NCBI GenBank assembly: GCA_017645905.1
Contig: JAGCNO010000085.1
Span: 1-32,651, forward strand
DNA: 32,651 nucleotides
Direction: 5' to 3'
Origin: Prevotella sp.
Lineage (GTDB): Bacteria; Bacteroidota; Bacteroidia; Bacteroidales; Bacteroidaceae
The notes below the pieces were generated by a model. That model worked only from the letters and a program-made list of their open reading frames with translations, was not told the DNA's origin and made no database searches. Below are positions 1 through 28,302 of the stretch, piece by piece. Both the position numbers and the translations under genes were made by a program. Position 1 is the first letter of the stretch. Each line of letters begins with the position of its first letter.

Positions 1-309
1 GAGGTAGACGATGTCGGGCGCCCAGATGCCGCCGTCGGGCACCATGTCCATGGGCCGTGTGACATCGGTGAAGGCCGTCCCTACGTAACGCCACTTGACG
101 AGGTCGCTGGAGCGGTAGATGGGCACGTTGTGGGTGTCCTCGGTGGCGTAGAGGTAGTAGTAGCCGTCCTGGGCACGTATCACCGTGGGGTCGGGCAGAC
201 TGCGGTTGATGACCGGGTTCTGGTAGACCTGCTGGTCACCGTCGGCGCAGGCCACAATGGTCATCATGGCCAGGCCGAGGGCAAACATTGATTTGTTTAG
301 CATATTCAT
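1..309 (-). CDS. GH43 lipoprotein, likely arabinanase/arabinofuranosidase type (partial, C-terminus missing)
   Basis: The open frame reads from an ATG at 309 down to the left edge, giving the first 103 residues of a secreted protein. The N-terminus is hydrophobic and ends in a lipobox (IVAC, Cys21), so an outer-membrane or periplasmic lipoprotein is expected. After it come NPVINRSLPDPTVIR, a GYYYLYATED stretch, YRSSDLVKW and GGIWAPDIVYL. These are the order and spacing of the first blades of a GH43 five-bladed propeller, and the Asp of LPDPT is the presumed catalytic base. GH43 enzymes act on arabinose- or xylose-containing glycans. It is the last visible gene of the susCDE run, separated from the SusE-like gene only by heptamer repeats, so it is probably cotranscribed. 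A second in-frame ATG lies at 303. The subfamily cannot be assigned from this fragment. Confidence 0.85.
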   Translation of the reverse strand, partial: MNMLNKSMFALGLAMMTIVACADGDQQVYQNPVINRSLPDPTVIRAQDGYYYLYATEDTHNVPIYRSSDLVKWRYVGTAFTDVTRPMDMVPDGGIWAPDIVYL

Positions 310-310
310 A

Positions 311-338
311 GGAGTGAGGAGTTAGGAGTGAGGAGTTA
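311..338. repeat. Heptamer tandem array at SusE/GH43 border
   Basis: Four 7-nt units alternate GGAGTGA and GGAGTTA on the plus strand. On the coding (minus) strand they read as TAACTCC/TCACTCC. The array encodes the last residues of the SusE-like protein, supplies its TAA stop (322-324) and fills the gap to the next start codon. It belongs to the same heptamer family as 12569-12617 and 24947-24960. Confidence 0.85.
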
Positions 339-1494
339 GCCTGATGTACATATCGCCTACGAGGAGGGAGAGGGTGACGGTGTAGACGCCGCTCTTCGAG
401 GACACCCACTTGAGGTCGCCGCCGTTGTCCTGTAGACGGTAGGGAAGGAGGGTCTCGTTCTCAAAGGGGTCGGTATTGGCCGACGGTGCGTAGAAGAACT
501 GGTCGCCCCATCCGGAACCAAGGCCTATCTTGAACTCTCCGCCGGCGATGATGTTGCCCGTCCAGGAGTAGATGTAAGGCTGGTGGAGCGGGTCGGCGAC
601 GGTGAACTTTCCGGCGGGCTGGTTGGTCTCCCAGCCGACGTCGGTGCCGTTACCGGCTATCCAAGGCATGTTCGACGAGGGAAGGGGAATATACATGCGG
701 TAGTTGTTCTCCTCGGCGTTGGTGTCGATGACGATGGTGCGGCGGCCAGATTCAACGGTCGAGAACTCGTTGATGTCTCCACTGGTGACGTAGTCCATCT
801 TGTAGATGCCGGGCTTCTCGGGCTGGTTGGCAGCCACGCCGTAGGCGGGATAGTCCTCGAGCGTGGTAAGGAAGTGGAAGTGGCAAGGCTCAACGTTGAA
901 GGTCAGCTCGTAGATGCCGGTGCCCATCTGGCGCTGCTCCATGCGCTCGGTCTTGGTGGTCTGGGTAGCATCGTCGGTGTAGCGGAAATACATGTAGGTG
1001 GGGAACTTCTCGTAGCAGGTGGCGGTGAAGCTGACCGTCGACTCTATGGGCTTGACGTACTTGTCCTTGTTGTGGACGTTGGCCAGCAGCTGCGCCGTGA
1101 CCTGAAGGGGCTGGCCGGGGATGACCCATCGGGAGACGATGCTGTTGAGCTCGTCGTGAGTGAACGATGCCGTGGTGACATCGCCAAGGTCGATATACTC
1201 TGAGTGATTCTCCGCCTTCTGGTTCGTGTCGTAGAAGGCTATCTTGTAGGTGACCGTGTCGGAGGCATTGATGGGGCTGACGGCCTTCTGCCAGTTGAAG
1301 GTGAGTGCCGGCTGGTTGGCAATGCCCTTGTTGAACACTATCTCCTCCTGCGAGACGCTGATGTGCATCTGGTCGGGATAGGTCTCCAGCTGGAAGAACT
1401 CGGGGTCTTCATTGCAGCTGACACAGAGGACACTGAGGAGACAGAGACCACAGAGCCCCCAAAGATGACAAAAAATGTTATTCTTGGTAATCAT
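322..1494 (-). CDS. SusE/SusF-like outer-membrane glycan-binding lipoprotein
   Basis: This is a 390-residue lipoprotein with a signal peptide and Cys27 lipobox (VSC followed by NED, the acidic +2/+3 residues typical of Bacteroidetes surface lipoproteins). The N-terminal part has the SusE-style Ig-like start (EIVFNKGIANQPALTFNWQKA) and a second sandwich domain. The C-terminal half, roughly residues 270-390, has the pattern of a SusE/SusF starch-binding-like module (MPWIAGNGTDVGWE, GGEFKIGLGSGWGDQFFYAP, GGDLKWVSSKSGVYTVTLSL). Such proteins sit on the cell surface beside SusCD and bind the glycan. It follows susD by a 24-nt gap made of heptamers. Its hydrophobic signal region is encoded by a 9-mer repeat (1420-1455) and its last residues by a heptamer array. 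The first 12 bases after ATG-1 context match those of the susD start (both proteins begin MITK). The specific ligand is unknown. Confidence 0.85.
   Translation of the reverse strand: MITKNNIFCHLWGLCGLCLLSVLCVSCNEDPEFFQLETYPDQMHISVSQEEIVFNKGIANQPALTFNWQKAVSPINASDTVTYKIAFYDTNQKAENHSEYIDLGDVTTASFTHDELNSIVSRWVIPGQPLQVTAQLLANVHNKDKYVKPIESTVSFTATCYEKFPTYMYFRYTDDATQTTKTERMEQRQMGTGIYELTFNVEPCHFHFLTTLEDYPAYGVAANQPEKPGIYKMDYVTSGDINEFSTVESGRRTIVIDTNAEENNYRMYIPLPSSNMPWIAGNGTDVGWETNQPAGKFTVADPLHQPYIYSWTGNIIAGGEFKIGLGSGWGDQFFYAPSANTDPFENETLLPYRLQDNGGDLKWVSSKSGVYTVTLSLLVGDMYIRLTPHS
1420..1455 (-). repeat. Four imperfect 9-mers encoding the SusE signal-peptide core
   Basis: Read on the minus strand, four consecutive 9-mers (CTCTGTGGT, CTCTGTCTC, CTCAGTGTC, CTCTGTGTC) share the consensus CTCTGTGTC and are in frame. 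They encode LCG-LCL-LSV-LCV, the hydrophobic core just before the lipobox Cys. Confidence 0.75.
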
Positions 1495-3504: not shown

Positions 3505-6500
3505 TTAGAAGTTGAGGTCAAGTCCGAACATGATGGAGCGGTTAAGAGGATACTGCAGTCCGTTGCTGGTTCCTAATTCGGGGTCCCAGAGCTTGAACGG
3601 TGTGAGGCAGAAGAGGTTGTTGCCGCTGACGAAGACTCGGCAGCTCTTGGCGTAGATGGGTTCCATCCAGGCCTTGGGCAGGGTGTAGCCCAGCTCGATG
3701 GTCTTGCAGCGCAGGAAGCTCATGCTCTTCTTCCACCATGTAGAACCGCGGTAGTTATTCTGGTTGGGGCCGTAGCTCAGGCGGGGCCAGAAGACGTTCT
3801 GCGACGGGTTCTGCTCCGTCCAGCGATCGTCGATATTCTTGGCGTAGGCATTACCCTCGGTGGTAGTACCGCCGCCGGGCATGAAGTAAGGCTGTCCGCC
3901 GATGATGCGATAGACATCGCCAACGCCCTGGAAGAAGAAGTTAAGGTCTATTCTCTTATAGCTGATGACGCCACCGAAGCCATAGACGATACGGGGGTCG
4001 ACAGTGCCGCCGATGAAGCCCTCGTCCTCCTCAGTGATGATGCCATCGCCATTGCGGTCTACATACTTGATGTCGCCAGGACGCAGCACCGTAGCACCCA
4101 CCTGCTGCATGGGGATGCCCTCCTTGAGGGTATAGACATTGTTGCCACTCTCATCCTGGGTGATGTCAAAGTCGTCGACAGTGAACAGGCGGTCGGCGGT
4201 CAGGCCGAAGAGTTCGCCCCATGAACGGCCTGTCTGTGCACGGTGAGTGCCCAGCTTCGATGCCGGCTCGTCAAACTCCGTCACCTTGTTCTTGGCGAAG
4301 GTGAAGTTGGCGTAGGCCGAGGTAAACCAGTCCTTGTTCCACTGTTTGTGGAAGTTCAGCGTGAACTCCACGCCGTGGTTCTCCATCTTGCCATAGTTGG
4401 CGTAGGGCAGTTTCTCGGCAGGAATACCGCTCTGCGTCGGCATACTGTTACGACGCATGAAGATGTCCTTACGGTTCTCCTTGAAGATGTCGAAGGTGAA
4501 GTCAATCATGTTGAGGATGCCCAGCTCCACACCGATGTTCTTCTTCAGCACGGTCTCCCAGGTCAGTCCTTCCACACCGTACTCACCCTCGTTGATGCCG
4601 CCGTAGGTACGCTGGCCGTTGGTGCCCCAGGTGTAGGCGTTGTCGTAGGTGTCAATCTTCGTAAGATAGGCAAAGCGACGGTTACTGCCGATGTTATCGT
4701 CACCGGCAAGACCAATGCTGGCACGGAACTTAACCTTGTTCAGCGATTTCTTCACCGACTGCATGAAAGGCTCCTCGCTGAGCAGCCAGCCCAGGGCAAA
4801 GGAGGGGAAGAAGCCGAAGCGCTTGCCCTTGGCGAAGTTCTCCGAACCGTTGTAGCCGAAGTTGAACTCTGCCACGTAGCGGTCATCGTAGGTGCCGCTG
4901 AGGCGTCCTGCGATACCCTGCTTACGGTAGTCCTGGATATCGCCGTCGTCGTAGGCCTGCTGGTTGTAGAGGAACAGGGCGTCGAGGTCGAACTTGCCGA
5001 AGCGGCGGTTGTACATCAGGTCGGCCTCTAAATAAATATTGGTGTTACCATAGTTGCCGCTGTTGTAGCTGCCCATCGACTCGTCGCCCGTCTGGAACTG
5101 GGTATAGATGAGGTTGCCCTCCTCGTCACGTCCCGTAGCAGGGAATACGGTTCCCACGTTGGCCGTACGGCCACGCTCGCTCTCGTTCCAGCGGTCGAAG
5201 CTGAACATCACCTTGGCCTTCAGGCCCTTGGTAATCTGACGCAGGTCCTGCTCCACCGAGAAGAGGGTCTGAATCTTCGACGACGTACGGAAGGCATAAC
5301 CGCCCTGCGTCACGTCGCGCCAGGGGTTCACACGGTTGGAAATCAGAGGGATGGCCCCGTCGCTATAACGTGCCGGATGTACGAAGGGCAGCGTCTTGAA
5401 GGCGTTGTCGAAGGCCACGTTGGTATCCACACGCTGTTTCTTGAAGCGGTTCAAGTAGCCGCCGATGTTTACACGCAGCAGCGTAGTCTTCGTCACGTCC
5501 ATGTCGATGTTGGTGCGCAAGTTGTACTGCTGGTTGTTTGTGGCGTTATCCACAATGAGGCTCTTGTCCTGCTCCAGGATGCCGCCCTCCTGGAAATAGC
5601 TGGCCACAATTGAGTAGCGCAGGAAGTCACTACCACCACTGATGTCAACATTGGCACGCGTGGTGTGGGCGTAGTCCTTCGTGATGGCGTCTATCCAGTT
5701 CACGTCGGGATAGAGGTCGGGGTCGTAGCCCGAGGCGGTGCGGTCGACAGCCTCCTGGGTGAAGGGCAGTGACTTGCCATCGTCGGCAGCCAGCTCGTTG
5801 AGCAAGCTCATATACTGCGAGGCATTCAGGAACTCCGGGAACATGGTAGGCTCGCTGATGGCATGCTCCACATGGAAGCGCACCTGCGGCGCACCTATCT
5901 TACCACGCTTCGTAGTAATGACGATGACGCCGTTGGCACCGCGCACACCGTACATGGCCTGTGCCGAAGCGTCCTTCAATATGGAGAACGACTCCACCTC
6001 GGCAATGTCGACATTGTTCAGGTCACGGGCCACACCGTCGATAAGCACTAACGGGGCATTGCTGCCGTGGAACGTCGACATACCGCGAATCCAGAAGTCG
6101 GAGTCGTCGTAGCCAGGCTCACCCGAGCGCTGGATGCCGATGACACCACTCAGCTTACCTGCCAGATTATTAGACATGGTACGCGTAGTACCGAATTGCA
6201 GCTCGGCGGGCTTGATGGTCTCGATGGAGCCGATGATAGAGGCTTTCTTCTGGGAGCTGTAACCCGTCACCACCACCTCGCTCATCTCGTTCTTGTCCTC
6301 CTCCAGCTCGACCTGCAAAATCTTAGAGCTACCCACACGCACTTGCTTCTTCTTGAAGCCCATGTAGCTGAACTCAAGCATGGTGTTGCTCTTCGTCGGA
6401 GCCATGATCTTAAACATACCGTCGGCATCGGTAATGCCAATGGTGCTGGTGCCCACCACCGTGACGGTGACGCCGATGAGCGGCTGCTTGTCCTGGTCGG

Positions 6501-6654
6501 TGACCAGACCCGTCACCTGACCTTGTGCCTGCTGCCCCTGAGCAAAGACAGGGGTCAGCGCTGCCGCTGGAAACAGCATCGTCGCCGTGCCTAACAGAAG
6601 CAGGGCGGCGGGCAACGCTGTGCGACAGCTTTTCGAAATTAGTTGTCTATTCAT
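3505..6654 (-). CDS. SusC/RagA-family TonB-dependent outer-membrane glycan transporter
   Basis: This 1049-residue protein has a long signal sequence ending near VFAQGQ. It is followed by a carboxypeptidase-regulatory-like domain (about residues 45-120: QVTGLVTDQDKQPLIGVTVT, YMGFKKKQVRVG), a TonB box/linker (EMSEVVVTGY), the plug (ASIIGSIETIKPAELQ, NNLAGKLSGVIGIQRSGEPG, IRGMSTF, PLVLIDGV, SILKDASAQAMYGVRGANGVIVITTKRGK) and a beta-barrel ending in a terminal aromatic strand (IMFGLDLNF). It imports oligosaccharides across the outer membrane using TonB energy and partners the SusD gene directly downstream. The length is normal for SusC. A TAnnTTTG promoter element lies about 70 nt upstream of the start. 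The leader also contains half of the heptamer-arm hairpin element. Confidence 0.98.
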   Translation of the reverse strand: MNRQLISKSCRTALPAALLLLGTATMLFPAAALTPVFAQGQQAQGQVTGLVTDQDKQPLIGVTVTVVGTSTIGITDADGMFKIMAPTKSNTMLEFSYMGFKKKQVRVGSSKILQVELEEDKNEMSEVVVTGYSSQKKASIIGSIETIKPAELQFGTTRTMSNNLAGKLSGVIGIQRSGEPGYDDSDFWIRGMSTFHGSNAPLVLIDGVARDLNNVDIAEVESFSILKDASAQAMYGVRGANGVIVITTKRGKIGAPQVRFHVEHAISEPTMFPEFLNASQYMSLLNELAADDGKSLPFTQEAVDRTASGYDPDLYPDVNWIDAITKDYAHTTRANVDISGGSDFLRYSIVASYFQEGGILEQDKSLIVDNATNNQQYNLRTNIDMDVTKTTLLRVNIGGYLNRFKKQRVDTNVAFDNAFKTLPFVHPARYSDGAIPLISNRVNPWRDVTQGGYAFRTSSKIQTLFSVEQDLRQITKGLKAKVMFSFDRWNESERGRTANVGTVFPATGRDEEGNLIYTQFQTGDESMGSYNSGNYGNTNIYLEADLMYNRRFGKFDLDALFLYNQQAYDDGDIQDYRKQGIAGRLSGTYDDRYVAEFNFGYNGSENFAKGKRFGFFPSFALGWLLSEEPFMQSVKKSLNKVKFRASIGLAGDDNIGSNRRFAYLTKIDTYDNAYTWGTNGQRTYGGINEGEYGVEGLTWETVLKKNIGVELGILNMIDFTFDIFKENRKDIFMRRNSMPTQSGIPAEKLPYANYGKMENHGVEFTLNFHKQWNKDWFTSAYANFTFAKNKVTEFDEPASKLGTHRAQTGRSWGELFGLTADRLFTVDDFDITQDESGNNVYTLKEGIPMQQVGATVLRPGDIKYVDRNGDGIITEEDEGFIGGTVDPRIVYGFGGVISYKRIDLNFFFQGVGDVYRIIGGQPYFMPGGGTTTEGNAYAKNIDDRWTEQNPSQNVFWPRLSYGPNQNNYRGSTWWKKSMSFLRCKTIELGYTLPKAWMEPIYAKSCRVFVSGNNLFCLTPFKLWDPELGTSNGLQYPLNRSIMFGLDLNF

Positions 6655-6681
6655 ACAAAAGGTTTTTGTTATTTTGTTTCA

Positions 6682-6713
6682 GTAGCAAATTCTTCGTTCT
6701 TCACTCTTCACTT
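6682..6713. repeat. Half copy of the heptamer-arm hairpin element in the susC leader
   Basis: The sequence GTAGCAAATTCTTC followed by TTCTTCACTCTTCACTT matches, with few differences, the right arm of the elements at 23741-23780 and 26013-26054 (GCAGCAAATT then TTCACTC heptamers). No left arm or loop is seen beside it, so it is a truncated copy. It lies between the predicted susC promoter and start codon, so it should be transcribed in the leader. Confidence 0.6.
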
Positions 6714-6722
6714 AACATGGTG

Positions 6723-8934: not shown

Positions 8935-8970
8935 CTTTGTAGTTGTTATATTAGATAGTTCTTTTTATGG

Positions 8971-9058
8971 GAATAAGCCGTTCTTTCGATTCGAATAAGC
9001 CGTTCTTTCTGGTCGAATAAGCCGTTCTTTCGATGGGAAAAAGCCGTTCTTTCTATGA
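8971..9058. repeat. 22-nt tandem repeat, four units (locus 1)
   Basis: Four consecutive 22-nt units begin at 8971, 8993, 9015 and 9037. Each starts GAATAAGCCGTTCTTTC or GAAAAAGCCGTTCTTTC and ends in a variable 5-6 nt. A degenerate fifth unit may precede it at about 8952-8970. The array fills most of the 152-nt gap between the GH115-GH43 gene and the next gene downstream. The family recurs at 17615-17680 and 28215-28302. Confidence 0.85.
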
Positions 9059-9086: not shown

Positions 9087-12000
9087 TTACTTCCTGCTGA
9101 CTCCTTCCTTGGTGATGACTACCTTCTTGATGAATCCCCGTTCGTCGAATTCCATCTTGTCGATGCAGGTGACGCGGTGGTTGGCATCGGTCTCGCCCAA
9201 GGGACGGCGGTGGTAGATGATGTACCACTCATCGTTGCCCATGCTGATGACCGAATGATGACCGGCACCGGTGGCCACCTCGGGGTCTTGTTCCAGAATC
9301 TTTCCGATGCGTTTGAACGGGCCGAGGGGCGAGTCGCTGATGGCATAGCTCACGCAATAGTCGGGGCCACCCCACCCTCCTTCGCTCCACATGAAGTAAT
9401 AATATCCGCCGCGCTTCAGCATGAACGGCCCCTCGACATAGCGCTCTGGCGTCACTTCCTTGTAGGTCTGGCCGTCGGGGAAGGGGACAATGCTCAGAAG
9501 GTCGTCGGAGAGGCGCACCACGTTGCAATGGCCCCACCCACCATAATACATATAATATTGTCCGTCGTCATCGTGGAACACGAACTGGTCGATGGGCTGT
9601 GCGCCGTTTACGATATCTTGAATGAGGGGCTTGCCTAAGGCATCCTTGTAGGGTCCCTGCGGCTTCTTGCTCACGGCAACGCCGATGCCTCCTACCTCGC
9701 CCTGGTGCACATCGTTGGCAGCGAAGAAGAGATAGTACTTGCCGTCCTTCTCCACGATGGCCGGAGCCCACATGGCGCGACGAGCCCACTTCACATGCTT
9801 GCTGGTGAGCACATTGGGGTGCTTCTTCCAGTGGACGAGGTCGTTGGAGGAGAAGGCATCGAAATGCAGCTGCTCGTCGTAGGGCGCCGAATAAGTGGGG
9901 AACACCCAGCAGCGGTCCTTGAACACAGTGCCCTCAGGGTCGGCATACCAGCCTTGGAAAATAGGGTTGCCGCTCGTCTCCTCATACATTGATGTCTCGG
10001 CAGGAGCCGCTTGGGGTAACGGAGTCACCGTGTTACGGATCTCGCTGATCACCACGCCGGGGTCCAGAAGGCTGACACGAAGGGTGACGGTCCTTTCTGC
10101 CGAGCTTTCATAGTCGATGGCGGCATCGTTGTAGCCCTGGGCCACGGTGGTGTGCCATTTGCCCTCCATGGCGACGGTCTTCAGGGAGACGATGGTCTCG
10201 GCGGGTGAACCGCCGAGCGCGGGCCTCGTGGCGGAAGAAGCGCCGGAAGTAAGCCCCGAGAAGGGAGAGCCGTCGAGGACTGAGAGGGCGACGCGCAGGT
10301 CGTAATTGGTGTTGATGGGGAAGTTCGAGAGGCAGCGCACCTCGATGTGGTTCTTGCCAGCCTTCACGGGGATGTCGTACTCCACGTAGGGAGCCTGCGC
10401 CACCTGACTGCTCTTGTAGGCCGTCATGTCGAGCGGCCAGACGGTGAGGGCCGACTTGCCAAGTCCCAGACCTTCGAGGGTCTTCACCGACGGGCTGGCC
10501 GTCTTGTAGCTGGCGGCGGGGAGGAGTTGAGAGTTGGGTGTGGGGTGTTGGGTGTTGGGTGTTGGGGAGGCTTGGATGCTGGACGGCGTGGCTGTTGCGG
10601 GCATGTTGAAGTGCTCCAGTCCACGGGGCTTGAAGTTCATCATGCCGTTCCATTTACCTCCGGCAATATCATTATTGTATTGGTTGGTCAGCTGCTCTAT
10701 CATGCTGTAGGCCTTGCGGGCATCGTCAGCATAACGCAGGGCCTGTTCGCGCTGGCCAAGGTTGCCCAGCTCGATGCTCTGTGCTGCGCGGAAGGTCTTC
10801 ACATTCATGTAGTAGGCGGCCTTCACGGGGTATTCGATGAGCTGGAAGAAAGCATCCTGCAGCTCGGCGGGTATGCGATTCTTCAGGACATCGACTCGGG
10901 CGGCCAGCGACTCGTAGTCGCTGATGCGGCGGTCCTTGTCGTCGTTGGTAAATTTAATAATGTGAAGATGCTCGGGCTTGCCACCGGCAGCCAGTCGATA
11001 GTAGTCCTTCTTGATGGCGGCAATGTCGTCGGCAAAGGCCTCGCCAAAGGTCTTGGCAGCCCATGCACGGTTATAGTTGATGGCGTTCTCCGGCGTCCAC
11101 TCGCTGATGTCCCAGGCAAGGTCCATGCAGAACTCCAGTTCCATCTCGGCAGGCTTGATGTCGCCCACGTTGATGACCCATAGTGTGCGGATGCCCTGGT
11201 CGTAGGCACGAGACAGCTCATAGCTCATCAGCGAGGGTGAGTGGGAGCAAATCCATAGATAGTCGGCAGGCGTTCCCCAATAAGACACGTGATAATAGAC
11301 GCCGTTGCCACCTGAGCGGGCCTGTTCGGCAGGCTTGGGAAGCTGGCGGATATAGCCATGATTGTCGTCGACCCAGCAGAGTGTCACGTCCTCGGGCACC
11401 TGCAGTCCGGCGTTATAGGCATCGAGCACCTCCTTATAGGGTATAAAGAGCTGCGGAACCTTCGTAACATCTTTGAAATACTTTCCGAGCAAGTCGCGCT
11501 GGAAACTGATAATCTCCGTGAGGCCACGTACCTTGTCGTCCGTCGAGGGATAGCCTGAGATGCCCCAGTCGTGTACCCCTCGCATGCCGAGTGTGTACAT
11601 GCCGTCGTAGCCCACGCTCTCCTTGACGCGCTCCTCCCAGTAAGTCTGAATCTTCTTGGTGTTAGTCACGTAGTTCCAGTCTTCGTTGTTGCCGCTCCAG
11701 GGCTCGTGACGCCACTCCCATTCGTTGTCGCGGAGCATCTGCTCACAATGGCTGGAGCCGAGCATGATGTCGTATTTGCGAGCCACAGGCAGGTTGTCCT
11801 TGTTGGCCCAGAAAGCCTCGGAGCAGAGATGCATAGCCGGCCACAGCGTGTTGGCACGCAGGCGTAGCAGCAGCTCCATGACGTGGGCGTAGGTGTTGGG
11901 GCCTATGTTGTTGTACTTCTTGTCAATACCCTTGCTGGCCCAGGGGAAGAGGGCGAAGTCCTCGTCGTTGATGAAAATGCCGCGGTATTTCACCGACGGT

Positions 12001-12539: not shown

Positions 12540-12568
12540 TGACGTGTGTTTTTTATGCTGAAAACTAT

Positions 12569-12617
12569 TAACTCCTAACTTCTAACTCCTAACTCCTAAC
12601 TTCTAACTTCTAACTCC
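12569..12617. repeat. Seven perfect-register heptamers (TAACTYC) after the GH78 gene
   Basis: Seven contiguous 7-nt units, each TAACTCC or TAACTTC, run from 12569 to 12617 and abut the GH78 stop codon (12618-12620) exactly. With a short AT-rich stretch they fill the gap to the GH115-GH43 start. Confidence 0.95.
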
Positions 12618-15600
12618 TTAGTCGGCGCGTTTCACTATCTCTTTCCTGTTTCCATGAATATAGAGGCCGTCCTGCACTGCCGATGGGTAAAGACGTCCCA
12701 AGAGGTCGTAAACGGGAACGTTGCCGAAGGCCCTTTGCGAAGCGTCCTTCGGTTCACGGATGGCCGTGTGTTCCTGCTTGGTGGAGAACACATACGAGCC
12801 GGAGGATACGCGATAGACCACGCTGCCATTGCCTTGCCCAACAAGCTGCACGCCCTGGGCCTCAGCAGCCGGCGTGCTGCCCTCCATCACCTCGCAGCCC
12901 TCTGCACAGGGCATGACGAGCGTTGCCGTAGTATTGGCAGGGATGGTGACGCTGTAGGTGAAATCATTGCCGCCATCGCAGTTCCAGGCAGCCTTAATAG
13001 CTCCGTATTCTGACCAATAGACGGCATCGACATCGGTGATGCGCTCCTGGTCGTAGAGCAGCGTGGTGCGCGTGTCGGGTGTGGGCTGAAGGAGGAAGTG
13101 CTTGAAGCCAGGCATACTGTCGACAGGAGCAATGCCAGCCATATCACGGAACATCCATTCGGCCACGGCTCCGTAAGCATAGTGGTTGAAGGAGTTCATG
13201 CTGATGTCCTGGTGGAAACCGCCTTCCTTCGTGTAAGAGTTCCAACGCTCCCACATCGTGGTGGCTCCCTGGTCTACGGTGTAGAGCCACGACGGACAGT
13301 TACGCTGAAGCAGCAGGGTGTAGGCCTCATTGTTCAGCCCAACCTGCGTCAACGTCTGGTTCAGCAGGCCCGTACCCACAAAGCCTGTGTTCAGCGTGTA
13401 CTTGTTGCCGGAGATGCTGCGGCGCAGCGACTCTACCGTGCGGCGGTAGGACTCATCACTGGGCAACATGCCAAAGCGCAGGGGCAGCAGGAAACCACAC
13501 TGGGTGGTAATCTTGGGAATCATAGAGGTGCTAAGGTAGCGGCTCTGCCACTCCTTGCAGATGTTCTCATAAAGTGTCTGGTATTTGGCAGCCTTCTCAC
13601 TATCGCCCAAGGCCTCGCACATACGCTTCATGAGCAAGGCGTCGTAGGCATAGTAACAAACGCTGATATAGCGCGAATCGGTAGGTACGAACGACACCCA
13701 GTCGCCATAGGTAGTAGTGCCGCCATTGTAGAGATAACCGTCGCCCGTCTGTGTGGCAAGGAAGTCCATGTAGCGCTCCATCGAGGCAAAGTTGTCGGTA
13801 AGGATGCCCTTGTCGCCCGTCATCAGATAGACATTATAGGGCAGCACAATGCCGGCATCGGCCCAGACGGCAGCGCCATAGCCTACGCCCCAGGAGTAAG
13901 GAGCAACGTGGGGATAGGCACCGTTAGGATTCTGCGACTCGCGCATGTCGCGCATCCATTTCTTGTAGAAGTTACGGGTGTCGCCATTATAGAGTCCTGC
14001 CATAGAGTATATCTGTGTGTCGGCAGTCCAGCCCAGACGCTCATCGCGCTGCGGACAGTCGGTAGGCACACTCACGAAGTTGGAGCGCTGGCCCCATAAG
14101 ATGTTACGATAGAGCTGGTTAACGGTCGCATGGCTAGTGGTGAAACTGGAACGCTCGCTGACAGCCGAGGTAACCGTCTCGCCCACAAGGCTGCTGATTT
14201 CCACGTCGGCACTCGTAGTCACCTCGACATAACGGAAGCCGTAATAGGTAGAGGTGGGGTGGAAGCTCTCGCCCTTCTCATCGCCACGCATGGTGTAGTC
14301 AAGGGTGGCCTTGGCAGAGCGCAGGGCAATGAGATAGAGCGAACCGCCAGGACCGTCGTTGCCACGGTTAGCATCGCCGTTCTCATTAATCATCTCTGAG
14401 AAGCGGAAACGCAGATGGGTGCCCTCCGCTCCACAGGCGGTGAAGCTGACCCATCCGGCAGCGTTCTGGCCAAGGTCGTAGATGGCCGTCTGGCCTGCCT
14501 TCAGCTTTACGGCGTGCTGTCCGCTGTAGTGCTCCACCTCGGTCAGCATACCGTGGGCAGTACCATTACTGGTTACGCCCTCATAGACGTGGATGTCGAG
14601 GGGCTGACGCTCAAGAGCCTTGACGGCACGTACGGCAGGACCCTCAAAGGCACGGATAGTACCGGTGAAGTCATTGCTCTGTGCTACGCCGTACCAGTCG
14701 GCATCGTTGAAGCCCGCAGTAGTCCAGGCCAGCGTGCGGCGAGCATCATAGGTCTCGCCATTATAGATGTCGCCCATACGCAATGGGCCATTGGTGTTCG
14801 ACAACCATGACTGGTCGGTGCAGATGACTTCCTCGCTACCATCATCATAGGTAACGATAAGCATGGCACGCACAGCACAGTCCTTGTTGCCCCACTCACC
14901 ATGAGCAATGCCACCATTCCACCAGCCTGAGCTAACCTCGGCACCTATCGCGTTCTGACCTTCGTGCAATAGCGGAGTAACGTCGTGGGTGGTGTAGAAC
15001 ACGGTGCTACGCATGTCGGTAGAGCCAGGCTTCAGCTCGTCATACCAAACGGTGCCGTCGGCATCAATCTGCCCTACACGCTGCCCATTAATATAATTAT
15101 TGTATATACCGAGGCCGGAGGCATAGAGTCTTGCCCGGCTGATGCCTGCCTTCAGTTCAAAGACCTTACGGAAGACGGGGCAGCCACCTTGTGTCCAAGA
15201 ATAGGTACCGGGCCCTTTCACAAAGTATCGGCCACCCTCGATGGTGCCGTTGGTGAAGAAGGTCTCGCCGCTCTCAAAGTCCTCGCTAAGGAGCACCCCG
15301 CCAGAAGCAGTCACCCGGAAATCGTCGAACCAGGCCTCCTCGGGCTGGTTGCCGTTGTCAAAGTCTTCACGGAAACCAAAGGTGCCGTAGGAGAAATCGC
15401 CGTTTCGTGTGTCAATGAGTTGTCCGTCGATGTAGGTCTTCGTCACACGGGCATCAGTCACCTCGATACGCAGCACGTGGTCCTCACCATTCTTCACGCT
15501 GACGGCAGTAATAGGCTTCTCCTCCAGACAGGCAGGGTTGCCGTTGGTCCACTGATGGGGACGGAAGCGAGCCTGACCTGTGTTGGTGTTCACCTGCCAC

Positions 15601-17605: not shown

Positions 17606-17614
17606 CCGTCTTGA

Positions 17615-17680
17615 GAAAAAGCCGTTCTTTCTACCAGAATAAGCCGTTCTTTCTATGAGAAAAAGCCGTTCTTTGCCGCT
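17615..17680. repeat. 22-nt tandem repeat, nearly three units (locus 2)
   Basis: Units begin at 17615, 17637 and 17659. The first two are complete (GAAAAAGCCGTTCTTTC, GAATAAGCCGTTCTTTC plus a variable end) and the third diverges after CGTTCTTTG. The orientation on the plus strand is the same as at 8971-9058. The array lies in the 421-nt divergent intergenic region 17506-17926. Confidence 0.85.
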
Positions 17681-20353: not shown

Positions 20354-24946
<4,593 letters not shown>

Positions 24947-25018: not shown

Positions 25019-25954
25019 ATGCGGTTTATCAAGTTCATATCTGAATACATGGGATTGCTGGTGCTGGCGGCAGCCCTGCTGGCATTGTTGTTCCCTGGGT
25101 TGCTGCAGCAGGTGAGGCCTACGGTCATCAACTATCTGCTGGGAGTGGTGATGTTTGGCATGGGACTGACACTGAAGCTTCAGGACTTCAAGGTGGTCTT
25201 CAGCCGTCCTAAGGATGTCATCGTTGGCTGTATAGCGCAGTTCACGGTCATGCCTCTGCTGGCCTGGGGACTTGCAAGACTGTTTTCCCTTGACGAGGCT
25301 CTGGCGCTGGGTGTGGTGCTGGTGGGCTGCTGTCCTGGTGGTACGGCTTCGAATGTGATTACCTATCTTGCCAAGGGCGACCTGGCGCTGTCTGTAGGCA
25401 TGACCGGAGTCTCCACGCTGTTAGCTCCCTTCCTCACCCCTTTGCTTACCTGGGCACTGGCAGGCAAAAGTGTCGACGTTGATGTGGCAAGCATGTTCCT
25501 CAGTATCCTGTGGGTGGTCATCCTGCCTATCGTCTTGGGACTGCTGGTCAAGGGGCTATGGCCAAAGTTTACGGAGAAGGCTACTGACTACCTCCCTGCC
25601 GTCTCTTCTATAGCCATTGCACTGATTGTGGCCATCGTTATCTCTGCCAATGCCGACAAGCTGCTGGCTGGGGGACTGATGATTGTCCTGGTGGTCATGC
25701 TCCATAATGTCTGCGGGCTGAGCCTTGGCTACCTGACAGGCCGTCTGCTGGGGCTCTCTGAAGCCAAGAAGAGGGCCGTCTCCATCGAGGTGGGTATGCA
25801 GAACTCAGGACTGGCCAGCAGCCTGGCTACCATACATTTTGCTGCCTATCCGCTGGCCACTATCCCGGGTGCCATCTTCAGCGTGTGGCACAACCTCTCA
25901 GGGGCTGCCGTAGCTTATCTCTATCGGAAGGGTGAGAGGTTAAGTGAAGAATGA
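25019..25954 (+). CDS. BASS/SBF-family sodium-dependent transporter
   Basis: This 311-residue integral membrane protein has about nine to ten hydrophobic segments. The hallmarks of the bile acid:sodium symporter family are clear: NYLLGVVMFGMGLTLKLQDF, VGCCPGGTASNVITYLAKGDLALS (crossover helix motif) and VSIEVGMQNSGLASSLA. Family members move organic anions with sodium, such as bile acids or pantoate-like acids. The substrate is not predictable here. Length is normal. It lies 69 nt after the GH43-GH2 gene on the same strand and could be read through from it, but no functional link is evident. The last codons (LSEE, stop) are formed by the start of a hairpin element, so the natural C-terminus has been replaced or trimmed. 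It faces the DASS transporter gene. Confidence 0.93.
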   Translation: MRFIKFISEYMGLLVLAAALLALLFPGLLQQVRPTVINYLLGVVMFGMGLTLKLQDFKVVFSRPKDVIVGCIAQFTVMPLLAWGLARLFSLDEALALGVVLVGCCPGGTASNVITYLAKGDLALSVGMTGVSTLLAPFLTPLLTWALAGKSVDVDVASMFLSILWVVILPIVLGLLVKGLWPKFTEKATDYLPAVSSIAIALIVAIVISANADKLLAGGLMIVLVVMLHNVCGLSLGYLTGRLLGLSEAKKRAVSIEVGMQNSGLASSLATIHFAAYPLATIPGAIFSVWHNLSGAAVAYLYRKGERLSEE

Positions 25955-26054
25955 AGAATGAAGAATGAAGAGTGAAGAATTTGCTGCCGCCAAATCTTCA
26001 CCTGATGGAACTGCGGCAGCAAATTATTCACTCTTCACTTTTCACTCTTCACTC
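25949..26054. repeat. Full heptamer-arm hairpin element between convergent transporter genes
   Basis: The left arm 25949-25990 and right arm 26013-26054 match at 37 of 42 positions around a 22-nt loop (25991-26012). The inner core is TTTGCTGCCGC/GCGGCAGCAAA and the outer arms are runs of GAAGAAT/GAAGAGT heptamers. It overlaps the stop codon of the BASS gene at one end and reaches the DASS stop at the other. By position it could act as a two-way terminator. It is homologous to 23679-23780. Confidence 0.92.
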
Positions 26055-27559
26055 TAAATAAGGTGCAGGATGCTCACTCCATAGAGCAGGCCATAGCCCA
26101 GGAGCATGGAGATGATGCCCACGATAATGCCTATCTTGACCATGTCATTCTGACGCACCAGGTTGGTGGCATAGGCCAGAGCATTGGGAGGTGTTGATAC
26201 AGGAAGGATCATGGCCGAGCTGGAGGCAATGGCAACACCAATGAGCACGGTGGCTGTTCCTCCAATGGCATCAAGCTTGTCGCCCATAGCACCACAGACA
26301 ATAGCCAGGATGGGCATGAGCAGAGCTGCAGTAGCCGAGTTGCTGATGAAGTTGCTCAGCAGATAGCAGATGATGCCCGAGAGCAGCAGTATCAGCAGGG
26401 GTGAGAACTCTCCGAAGGGGATGCTCTCAACAGCATTGGCAGCCAGTCCGGAAGCATTAAGGCCATAGCCCAGTGCAAAGCCTCCAGCCACCATCCAGAT
26501 GACCGACCAGTTGATTTCCTCCAGGTCCTGACGCTTGATGACTCCTGTCAGCGCAAAGACACAGAAGGGGATAAGGGCCACGGTGTAGGAGTTGATGCCT
26601 GTCACGCTGTCTAAGAGCCAGAGCAGGACCGTGACAAGGAAGGTCACGATGACAATCTTGCTGTGTGAACCCTGCTTCATGCCTCCCTCGATGTGCAGCT
26701 CAATAGTCTTCTGCGTGAAGGGGAACAGGTGGAGCAGCAGTCGCCAGCTGATGAACAGCAGCACGATGACTAACGGCAGCATGAACAGCATCCACTGTCC
26801 GAAGCCCATGCCAAGGTTAAGGCCCTCAGGGTCGTTCAGATACTTCATGGCAATGGTGTTGGGCGGTGTGCCGATAGGTGTTCCCATACCACCCAGGTTG
26901 GCAGCTACGGGAATGGAGAGCGCCATTGAGATGCGGCCTTTGCCCTCTGGAGGCAGCTGACGGAACACTGGTGTAAGGAAGGTGAGCATCATGGCTGCCG
27001 TTGCAGTGTTGGAGATGAACATGGAGAACAGGCCCGTGATGAGCAGGAAGCCCAGCAGCACGTTCTCACTCTTCTTGCCGAAGGGCTTCAGCAGCACCTT
27101 GGCCAGCTGGGTGTCCAGACCTGTCTTGGTGGCAGCAATGGCCAGAATGAATCCTCCGATGAACAGCATGATGACCGGGTCGGCAAAGCAGGCCATCACT
27201 CCCTTGTAGGAGAGCAATGACCCTACCTCCTCAGGGTCGCACATCCATTTCACGCCAGAGTCTGAGGCAAAGAGCAGCATCAGCCCAATGACGGCTACAG
27301 ACGTAGCCCATGAAGGCACTACCTCCATCACCCACATCAGCGTGGCAAAGACGAAGATGGCAATGATACGTTGCTGAACAACGTTAAGGCCCTCAATGCC
27401 AAATGCCGTGACTGGCAGGTTCCAAATCACCAGCGTCACAATGAGCACGAAGATGGCCTCTAACAACTTCTTGAAAACCCTTGAAGGGTGGGCTTTCTTC
27501 TCATGGCGCATGTTGTGATACGCCTCAATGAGATGATAACCGTGAAAACTTTTGAACAT
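26054..27559 (-). CDS. DASS/SLC13-family sodium:anion (dicarboxylate) symporter
   Basis: This 501-residue membrane protein has about eleven to twelve hydrophobic segments. Family signatures are visible: TLMWVMEVVPSWATSVAVIGLMLL, FIGGFILAIAATKTGLD, FISNTATAAMMLTFLTPV (SNT motif), IPVAANLGGMGTPIGTPPNTIAM and near the end the second repeat FISNSATAALLMPI with ILPVSTPPNALAYA. The SNT motifs form the sodium and carboxylate sites in VcINDY-type transporters, which import succinate-like dicarboxylates or sulfate. The N-terminal 40 residues are hydrophilic and basic. The start at 27559 is the first ATG after a TAnnTTTG promoter element (27613-27620). The gene stands alone on the minus strand and converges on the BASS gene. 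Confidence 0.95.
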   Translation of the reverse strand: MFKSFHGYHLIEAYHNMRHEKKAHPSRVFKKLLEAIFVLIVTLVIWNLPVTAFGIEGLNVVQQRIIAIFVFATLMWVMEVVPSWATSVAVIGLMLLFASDSGVKWMCDPEEVGSLLSYKGVMACFADPVIMLFIGGFILAIAATKTGLDTQLAKVLLKPFGKKSENVLLGFLLITGLFSMFISNTATAAMMLTFLTPVFRQLPPEGKGRISMALSIPVAANLGGMGTPIGTPPNTIAMKYLNDPEGLNLGMGFGQWMLFMLPLVIVLLFISWRLLLHLFPFTQKTIELHIEGGMKQGSHSKIVIVTFLVTVLLWLLDSVTGINSYTVALIPFCVFALTGVIKRQDLEEINWSVIWMVAGGFALGYGLNASGLAANAVESIPFGEFSPLLILLLSGIICYLLSNFISNSATAALLMPILAIVCGAMGDKLDAIGGTATVLIGVAIASSSAMILPVSTPPNALAYATNLVRQNDMVKIGIIVGIISMLLGYGLLYGVSILHLI

Positions 27560-28196: not shown

Positions 28197-28214
28197 CCTG
28201 TGGAGGCCAGTAGA

Positions 28215-28302
28215 GAAAGAACTATTCTTTCCCATAGATTAAACTATTTAATCTCATAGAAAGAACTATCTTTTCTCATAGAAAAAACGGTTCTTTCTCA
28301 TG
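28215..28302. repeat. 22-nt tandem repeat, four units (locus 3, divergent variant)
   Basis: Four 22-nt units begin at 28215, 28237, 28259 and 28281. They start GAAAGAACTATTCTTTC, GATTAAACTATTTAATC, GAAAGAACTATCTTTTC and GAAAAAACGGTTCTTTC and most end CATA. The period and layout are the same as at 8971-9058 and 17615-17680, with a changed core. They occupy the first third of the 358-nt gap after the thioesterase gene. The rest is AT-rich and leads into the promoter at 28419-28450. Confidence 0.8.

Follow-up and report, generated by a model that had tools for sequence, protein, structure and literature searches.

A dispersed Prevotella-type repeat with heptamer arms, present between genes and, in frame, within conserved genes

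Two long hairpins and a related half copy, all built of 7-nt units (Table 1), lie within a 32,651-nt stretch of DNA from Prevotella sp. (GCA_017645905.1, contig JAGCNO010000085.1, positions 1 to 32,651; hereafter the window), and one of the hairpins falls inside a gene for a carbohydrate-active enzyme. The question that this locus raises is whether these structures are confined to it or belong to a mobile family, and how a gene comes to accommodate one. The genome from which the window comes (hereafter the source genome) amounts to 3.4 Mb in 181 contigs and is 87.5% complete.

Table 1. Copies of the repeat in the window and the ORF that hosts copy 2 (window coordinates).
Feature	Position	Strand	Context
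Copy 1, full hairpin made of two head-to-head units around a 22-nt loop	25945..26056		Between convergent transporter genes
Copy 1 left unit, head GCGGCAGCAAA + heptamers	25945..25990	minus	
Copy 1 right unit	26013..26055	plus	
Copy 2, full hairpin element	23675..23784	plus	In frame within GH43-GH2 ORF
Copy 2 host ORF, GH43 fused to LacZ-type GH2, 1528 aa	20363..24949	plus	Element in GH2 loop
Half copy, one unit with diverged head	6679..6716	plus	Gap upstream of TonB-type ORF 3505-6654 (minus)

The arms of copy 1 (25948-25990 and 26013-26055, 43 nt) and those of copy 2 (23677-23718 and 23741-23782, 42 nt) are in each case 88% complementary with 22 nt between them, while the two elements, 2.2 kb apart, share 84% identity across 100 nt free of gaps and the half copy (6682-6712) matches the arms of the full copies at 86-93%. 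All four arms, like the half copy, contain period-7 arrays, and both hairpins, on either strand, fold better than every one of 200 shuffles that keep dinucleotide composition (z -11.2 to -12.1). Two full hairpins, a half copy and arms of 7-nt units, as claimed in a preliminary description of this DNA, are thus real. That no transposase lies nearby, also claimed there, agrees with a Pfam scan in which none of 16 main ORFs of the window carries a transposase domain; no family reached its gathering score in an Rfam scan of the window. The stop codons of both genes flanking copy 1 (25952-25954, plus strand; 26054-26056, minus strand) lie inside the element or at its edge, and the bile-acid-symporter-type gene ends in copy 1 because its TGA sits in the heptamers. 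The ORF hosting copy 2 sits among SusD/SusE-, TonB-, GH115-, GH43-, GH76- and rhamnosidase-type genes.

These copies are not isolated. Searching the source genome with GCGGYAGCAAATTCTTCAYTC at up to three mismatches gave 68 matches, against none for the reversed pattern, so that the core is not restricted to the sites first described; a search with the 106-nt element returned at least 86 rows, many of which report a single place once per strand (of 110 first-look candidates, 40 were scored). Across the genus, 72 of 150 genomes including the source genome are positive at up to two mismatches, with as many as 84 matches and none for the control. Across the order the count drops to 8 of 295 genomes, again including the source genome, the other seven holding one match each, one of them exact (G508); the control pattern matched once in one genome of that survey. 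Three genomes representing other genera of the family gave no match to the head pattern. An exact copy of the 32-nt core occurs in at least 117 stretches of other, named assemblies, which makes an assembly artefact unlikely, and the 80 core matches listed are titled Prevotella, Prevotellaceae, Bacteroidaceae, Bacteroidales and, once, uncultured bacterium. The repeat is accordingly what the preliminary description had called it, a defined, non-autonomous, multi-copy family, without coding capacity of its own.

The copies in the source genome and 272 distinct heads (a count that both heads of a full element, and orthologous sites of related species, enter separately) give a unit of about 42 nt, in which the head GCGGYAGCAAA is followed by about four heptamers (TTCTTCA/YTCTTMA) and usually by a terminal CACTT. 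Two units head to head make a long hairpin, and single units also occur. Full copies, about 110 nt in the window, are palindromic with terminal inverted repeats; half copies are not palindromic, and no hairpin of their own was seen by eye. It is the half copy that forms the basic unit and not, as first proposed, the full hairpin: 202 of the 272 heads lack a recognisable partner head within 70 nt upstream, and when inverted heptamers were accepted under a looser criterion, 79 of the 231 usable heads counted as paired. The number of heptamers per arm does vary as proposed, from 1 to 20 by the scoring applied, with four in 104 and five in 101 of the 272 tails (205 together), some of the fifth heptamers being chance matches. 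In 157 of 272 cases an A stands three bases before the head, and GTAG is seen by eye within heads in which Y is T and is missing where Y is C. The 22-nt loop that the preliminary description regarded as shared does agree at 14 of 22 positions between copies 1 and 2 (hand count), but the loops of full copies span 8-46 nt, only 9 of 37 distinct loops measure 22 nt and most are unrelated by eye; a 22-nt loop is a trait of a sub-group and not a constant of the family.

Some copies depart from this plan or have distinctive neighbours. At L005, L112, L057 and others, differing heptamers stand beside related heads, for example CTCTCAA after GCGGTAGCAAA, or CGATTTA-type arrays facing a head. Intergenic half copies at L137, L153, L155, L159, L212 and others lie, by eye, directly upstream of a TAnnTTTG-like sequence, which we take to resemble the -7 promoter box of Bacteroides.

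The main point, which the preliminary description overlooked, is that copies are read in frame inside genes. Copy 2 is read in frame in an ORF matching GH43 and GH2 domains, where it encodes a predicted peptide and, placed against the solved beta-galactosidase 6s6z, falls in the loop following IWDWVDQG. Within ORFs open for at least 60 codons on both sides we found 89 of the 272 heads, 45 in the sense direction in a main register, 8 in the sense direction in a second (GSKFF) register and 36 antisense, 35 of which use one register. Judged by conceptual translation, in-gene copies are read mainly in one register per direction and would encode a near-constant peptide in variable loops. Stop avoidance alone does not explain the ratio of 45 to 8, because among the 183 non-gene copies the GSKFF register is open in 144 and the main register in 168; several of the eight GSKFF-register copies may be chance open frames. 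In heptamer 3, TTA takes the place of TGA in 29 of 36 antisense in-gene copies vs 16 of 181 non-gene copies (Fisher 3e-18), a signal that is inflated, since openness was the criterion by which in-gene copies were selected; the same selection accounts for some of the register bias.

A check free of that choice started from 236 distinct elements, 30 of which were too near an edge and 112 not within one gene, and left 94 candidate intragenic elements flanked on either side by 100 open codons of one strand. Fifty-two of the candidates are open throughout in one frame, 12 keep the frame but contain a stop and 30 change the frame, so that with openness not required the frame is preserved in 64 of 94; the 42 not-open or frame-changing candidates will include adjacent genes and may include broken ones. 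Among 39 full copies, loop length is 1 mod 3 in all 21 that lie inside genes vs 11 of the 18 elsewhere. The Pfam domains of the host proteins are intact or nearly so. For an FprA-like host protein the predicted structure (mean pLDDT 73) places the insert, at about residues 160-174, as coil between predicted strands 154-161 and 175-177, confidence being low in the surrounding residues.

In relatives (the database holds one genome per species) the same loops occur without the element or with other repeats. Empty sites, which the preliminary description proposed to compare in sister strains, were found in these relatives for the FprA-like, UxaA and GH2 loops. The FprA-like loop measures 21 or 27 nt in 18 of 29 relatives vs 57 nt in the source genome's own gene; in L324 and L327 it holds a different GC-rich palindrome, read in frame, 105 nt in all, and in other relatives it spans 39-69 nt, some with short palindromes (by eye). 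The UxaA loop is 39 nt long in 24 of 29 relatives vs 117 nt with a full element in the source genome, and in the closest relative (L451) it is 60 nt long with heptamers of another type. By eye, with L259 left unassigned, the GH2 loop is without a repeat in L245 and L223, carries the GCGGYAGCAAA-head family in L154/L263 (apparently one genome), L247 and L250, GC-rich palindromes in frame in L246, L252, L256, L267 and L271, and other heptamer-like arrays in L249, L264 and L265. The DXS loop is 60 nt long in the source genome and 27-75 nt in 29 relatives, a spread in which no empty state stands out. That loops accepting one repeat family also accept others points to tolerance as the filter.

Contigs classed as viral contribute 46 stretches with 54 heads, 9 of them in frames open for 60 codons on both sides. 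In a PHROGs scan of seven of these nine copies, two gave matches and five none. A DarB-like match in L368 (residues 33-1689 of 1709 aa) spans the insert at residue 613, in frame, and this one case suggests that phages may carry the repeat; in L372 a terminase match begins past the element, which probably precedes the terminase gene.

The family thus occupies intergenic DNA and, in frame, conserved genes, and from its many unrelated contexts and the element-free relatives we infer that it is mobile. We consider it likely that it is a dispersed Prevotella-type repeat family without a mover of its own, a form of selfish DNA able to live inside genes in the manner of the Rickettsia palindromic elements (RPEs). 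Units would be copied to new places by a trans-acting activity that leaves no detectable target duplication. Gene-breaking insertions would mostly be lost, and those kept would preserve the frame (42 nt being 14 codons), be free of in-frame stops and occupy tolerant loops, with arm length changing through heptamer slippage.

To our knowledge, Rickettsia is the main group in which palindromic selfish DNA has been described in frame. RPEs are described as short palindromic repeats of several families that often lie in frame in unrelated genes and encode a conserved peptide, as outlined in PMC10969869. The Prevotella element has in common with them the palindrome (in full copies, about 110 nt vs about 100-150 bp) and the habit of entering unrelated genes in frame with a peptide that is conserved, and it appears to work like an RPE, a likeness drawn from architecture and behaviour. 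It differs in its host, Bacteroidota and not Rickettsia, in its heptamer-array arms and in its build from half units, which are frequent. Among the matches listed in our literature search, none described an element of this sort from Prevotella or any other Bacteroidetes.

The heptamers themselves are part of a wider pattern. In 400 kb of the source genome, 84 of 248 TRF arrays have period 7, with 32 consensus types, whereas a Markov-resampled sample of that genome gave none among 13 arrays. Period 7 accounts for 12 of 100 arrays in G016, a relative without the repeat, and, in 240 kb each, for 22 of 125 in the repeat-rich G059 and 13 of 96 in the repeat-free G045; the excess is strong in the source genome and modest in G059, and period 7 is also present in element-free genomes. 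The second commonest class in the source genome is period 22 (34 of 248 in the 400 kb vs 8 of 100 in G016), represented in the window by arrays of GTTCTTTCTATGCGAATAAGCC and kin at 8958-9057, 17614-17674 and 28214-28301. Other heptamer arrays of the window (309-339, 1494-1519, 10526-10567 and 12563-12618; TAGGAGT, TGGGTGT, GTTGGGT and TAACTCC types) are, by eye, without the GCGGYAGCAAA head. A small AGCGNAGCGCT-like or AGGCCGAAGGCCG-like palindrome directly terminates arrays such as (TCATTTC)n at L288, L290, L294 and L298, and this suggests another head type.

Tandem 7-nt units in many copies are reported from cyanobacteria, Beggiatoaceae and Xanthomonas, and TAACTGA also from five Bacteroidetes, in the accounts given by PMC4679880 and PMC4692102. 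The Prevotella element resembles these STRR-like repeats in its many-copy tandem 7-nt units, but its arrays adjoin a constant head that is not itself repetitive, form hairpins in pairs and are read in frame in genes, whereas the TAACTGA sets are described in the same accounts as mainly intergenic. A more speculative reading, which we advance with considerable doubt, is that a general Prevotella-type process generates hairpin and heptamer DNA, in many unrelated sequences but always with a 7-nt step, and spreads it into the same tolerant protein loops, the head family being one product of it. If that were so, one protein loop would be a recurrent landing site for different elements in different species, protein surfaces would be remodelled across the genus, and the 7-nt step would stem from an activity dedicated to copying, where plain slippage would not be its source.

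How a repeat without a mover of its own might travel bears on the remaining alternatives. A scan for target-site duplications at many offsets covered 152 half copies, in which none was detected, and 49 oriented rows of full copies, where the excess at 2 nt was small (0.135, sd over settings 0.030); on recheck with 33 distinct full elements the largest excess, 0.142, again at 2 nt, was equalled by 5 of 40 permutations. The flanking direct repeats that the preliminary description had in view were thus detected in neither half copies nor full elements. Absent target duplication, like the inverted pairing, fits HUH chemistry, in which case the family would be REP-like and a resident Y1 transposase (HUH, RAYT-type) would move its members by acting on their hairpins in single-stranded DNA, with half copies and head-to-head dimers as alternative products. 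Y1_Tnp occurs in 88 of the 150 genus genomes and is commoner in repeat-positive ones (49 of 72 vs 39 of 78, p 0.03; at 20 or more matches, 18 of 23 vs 70 of 127, p 0.04; odds ratio with the repeat 2.1-2.9, p 0.007-0.05 by threshold), although these statistics ignore ancestry, genome size and completeness. The association is weak. The source genome has one Y1 match, under the family cut-off, most genomes with the strongest Y1 matches have few or no copies of the repeat, 5 of the 23 high-copy genomes (some incomplete) are without a Y1 match, and the lack of a visible hairpin in half copies does not suit such a mechanism. GTAG/CGTC REPs with RAYT transposases are characterised as small dispersed repeats with inverted dimers and occasional intragenic copies, as sketched in PMC3733652. 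Dispersal, inverted dimers and some intragenic sites are common to both, but the Prevotella unit is longer and not itself a palindrome, and its GTAG lies inside T-type heads and not at the foot of a hairpin; we regard movement by Y1 as unlikely.

An ordinary MITE of a DDE transposase, with the arms as its terminal inverted repeats, would explain a short element with inverted ends in many copies, and full copies do share terminal inverted repeats with that class. The missing target-site duplication in the 152 half copies and 33 distinct full elements, the outnumbering of pairs by half copies and a window free of transposase domains make this origin improbable. The BrickBuilt MITE of Porphyromonas gingivalis, also of the Bacteroidota, has a tandem array between small inverted ends but, compared by description only, uses a 23-nt unit with leader and tail and has 19 copies, according to the portrayal in PMC4596501. 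About as improbable is a functional element selected for RNA structure, such as a bidirectional terminator between convergent genes: the hairpin is very stable and copy 1 lies exactly between convergent genes, yet most heads are half copies without a partner, many lie inside genes, and no T-run directly follows the stem of copy 1. Local slippage of heptamers without dispersal is rejected as most improbable of all, because the same 11-nt non-repetitive head stands beside the array in 272 distinct contexts, which slippage cannot bring about, even though period-7 arrays of many sequences are common and slippage is named as one proposed reason for heptamer abundance in the discussion cited from PMC4692102.

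The dispersed, RPE-like family shows a trick known from Rickettsia in a group that is abundant in gut and rumen, where the genes affected include those for beta-galactosidase, altronate dehydratase and DXS. The 7-nt periodicity, prevalent across many sequences, is a regularity that calls for an explanation. With element-free relatives available, it becomes possible to test how the units move when no duplication is left and whether the elements give rise to new protein loops, and annotation and protein modelling of repeat-bearing genomes should treat such peptides as repeat-derived.
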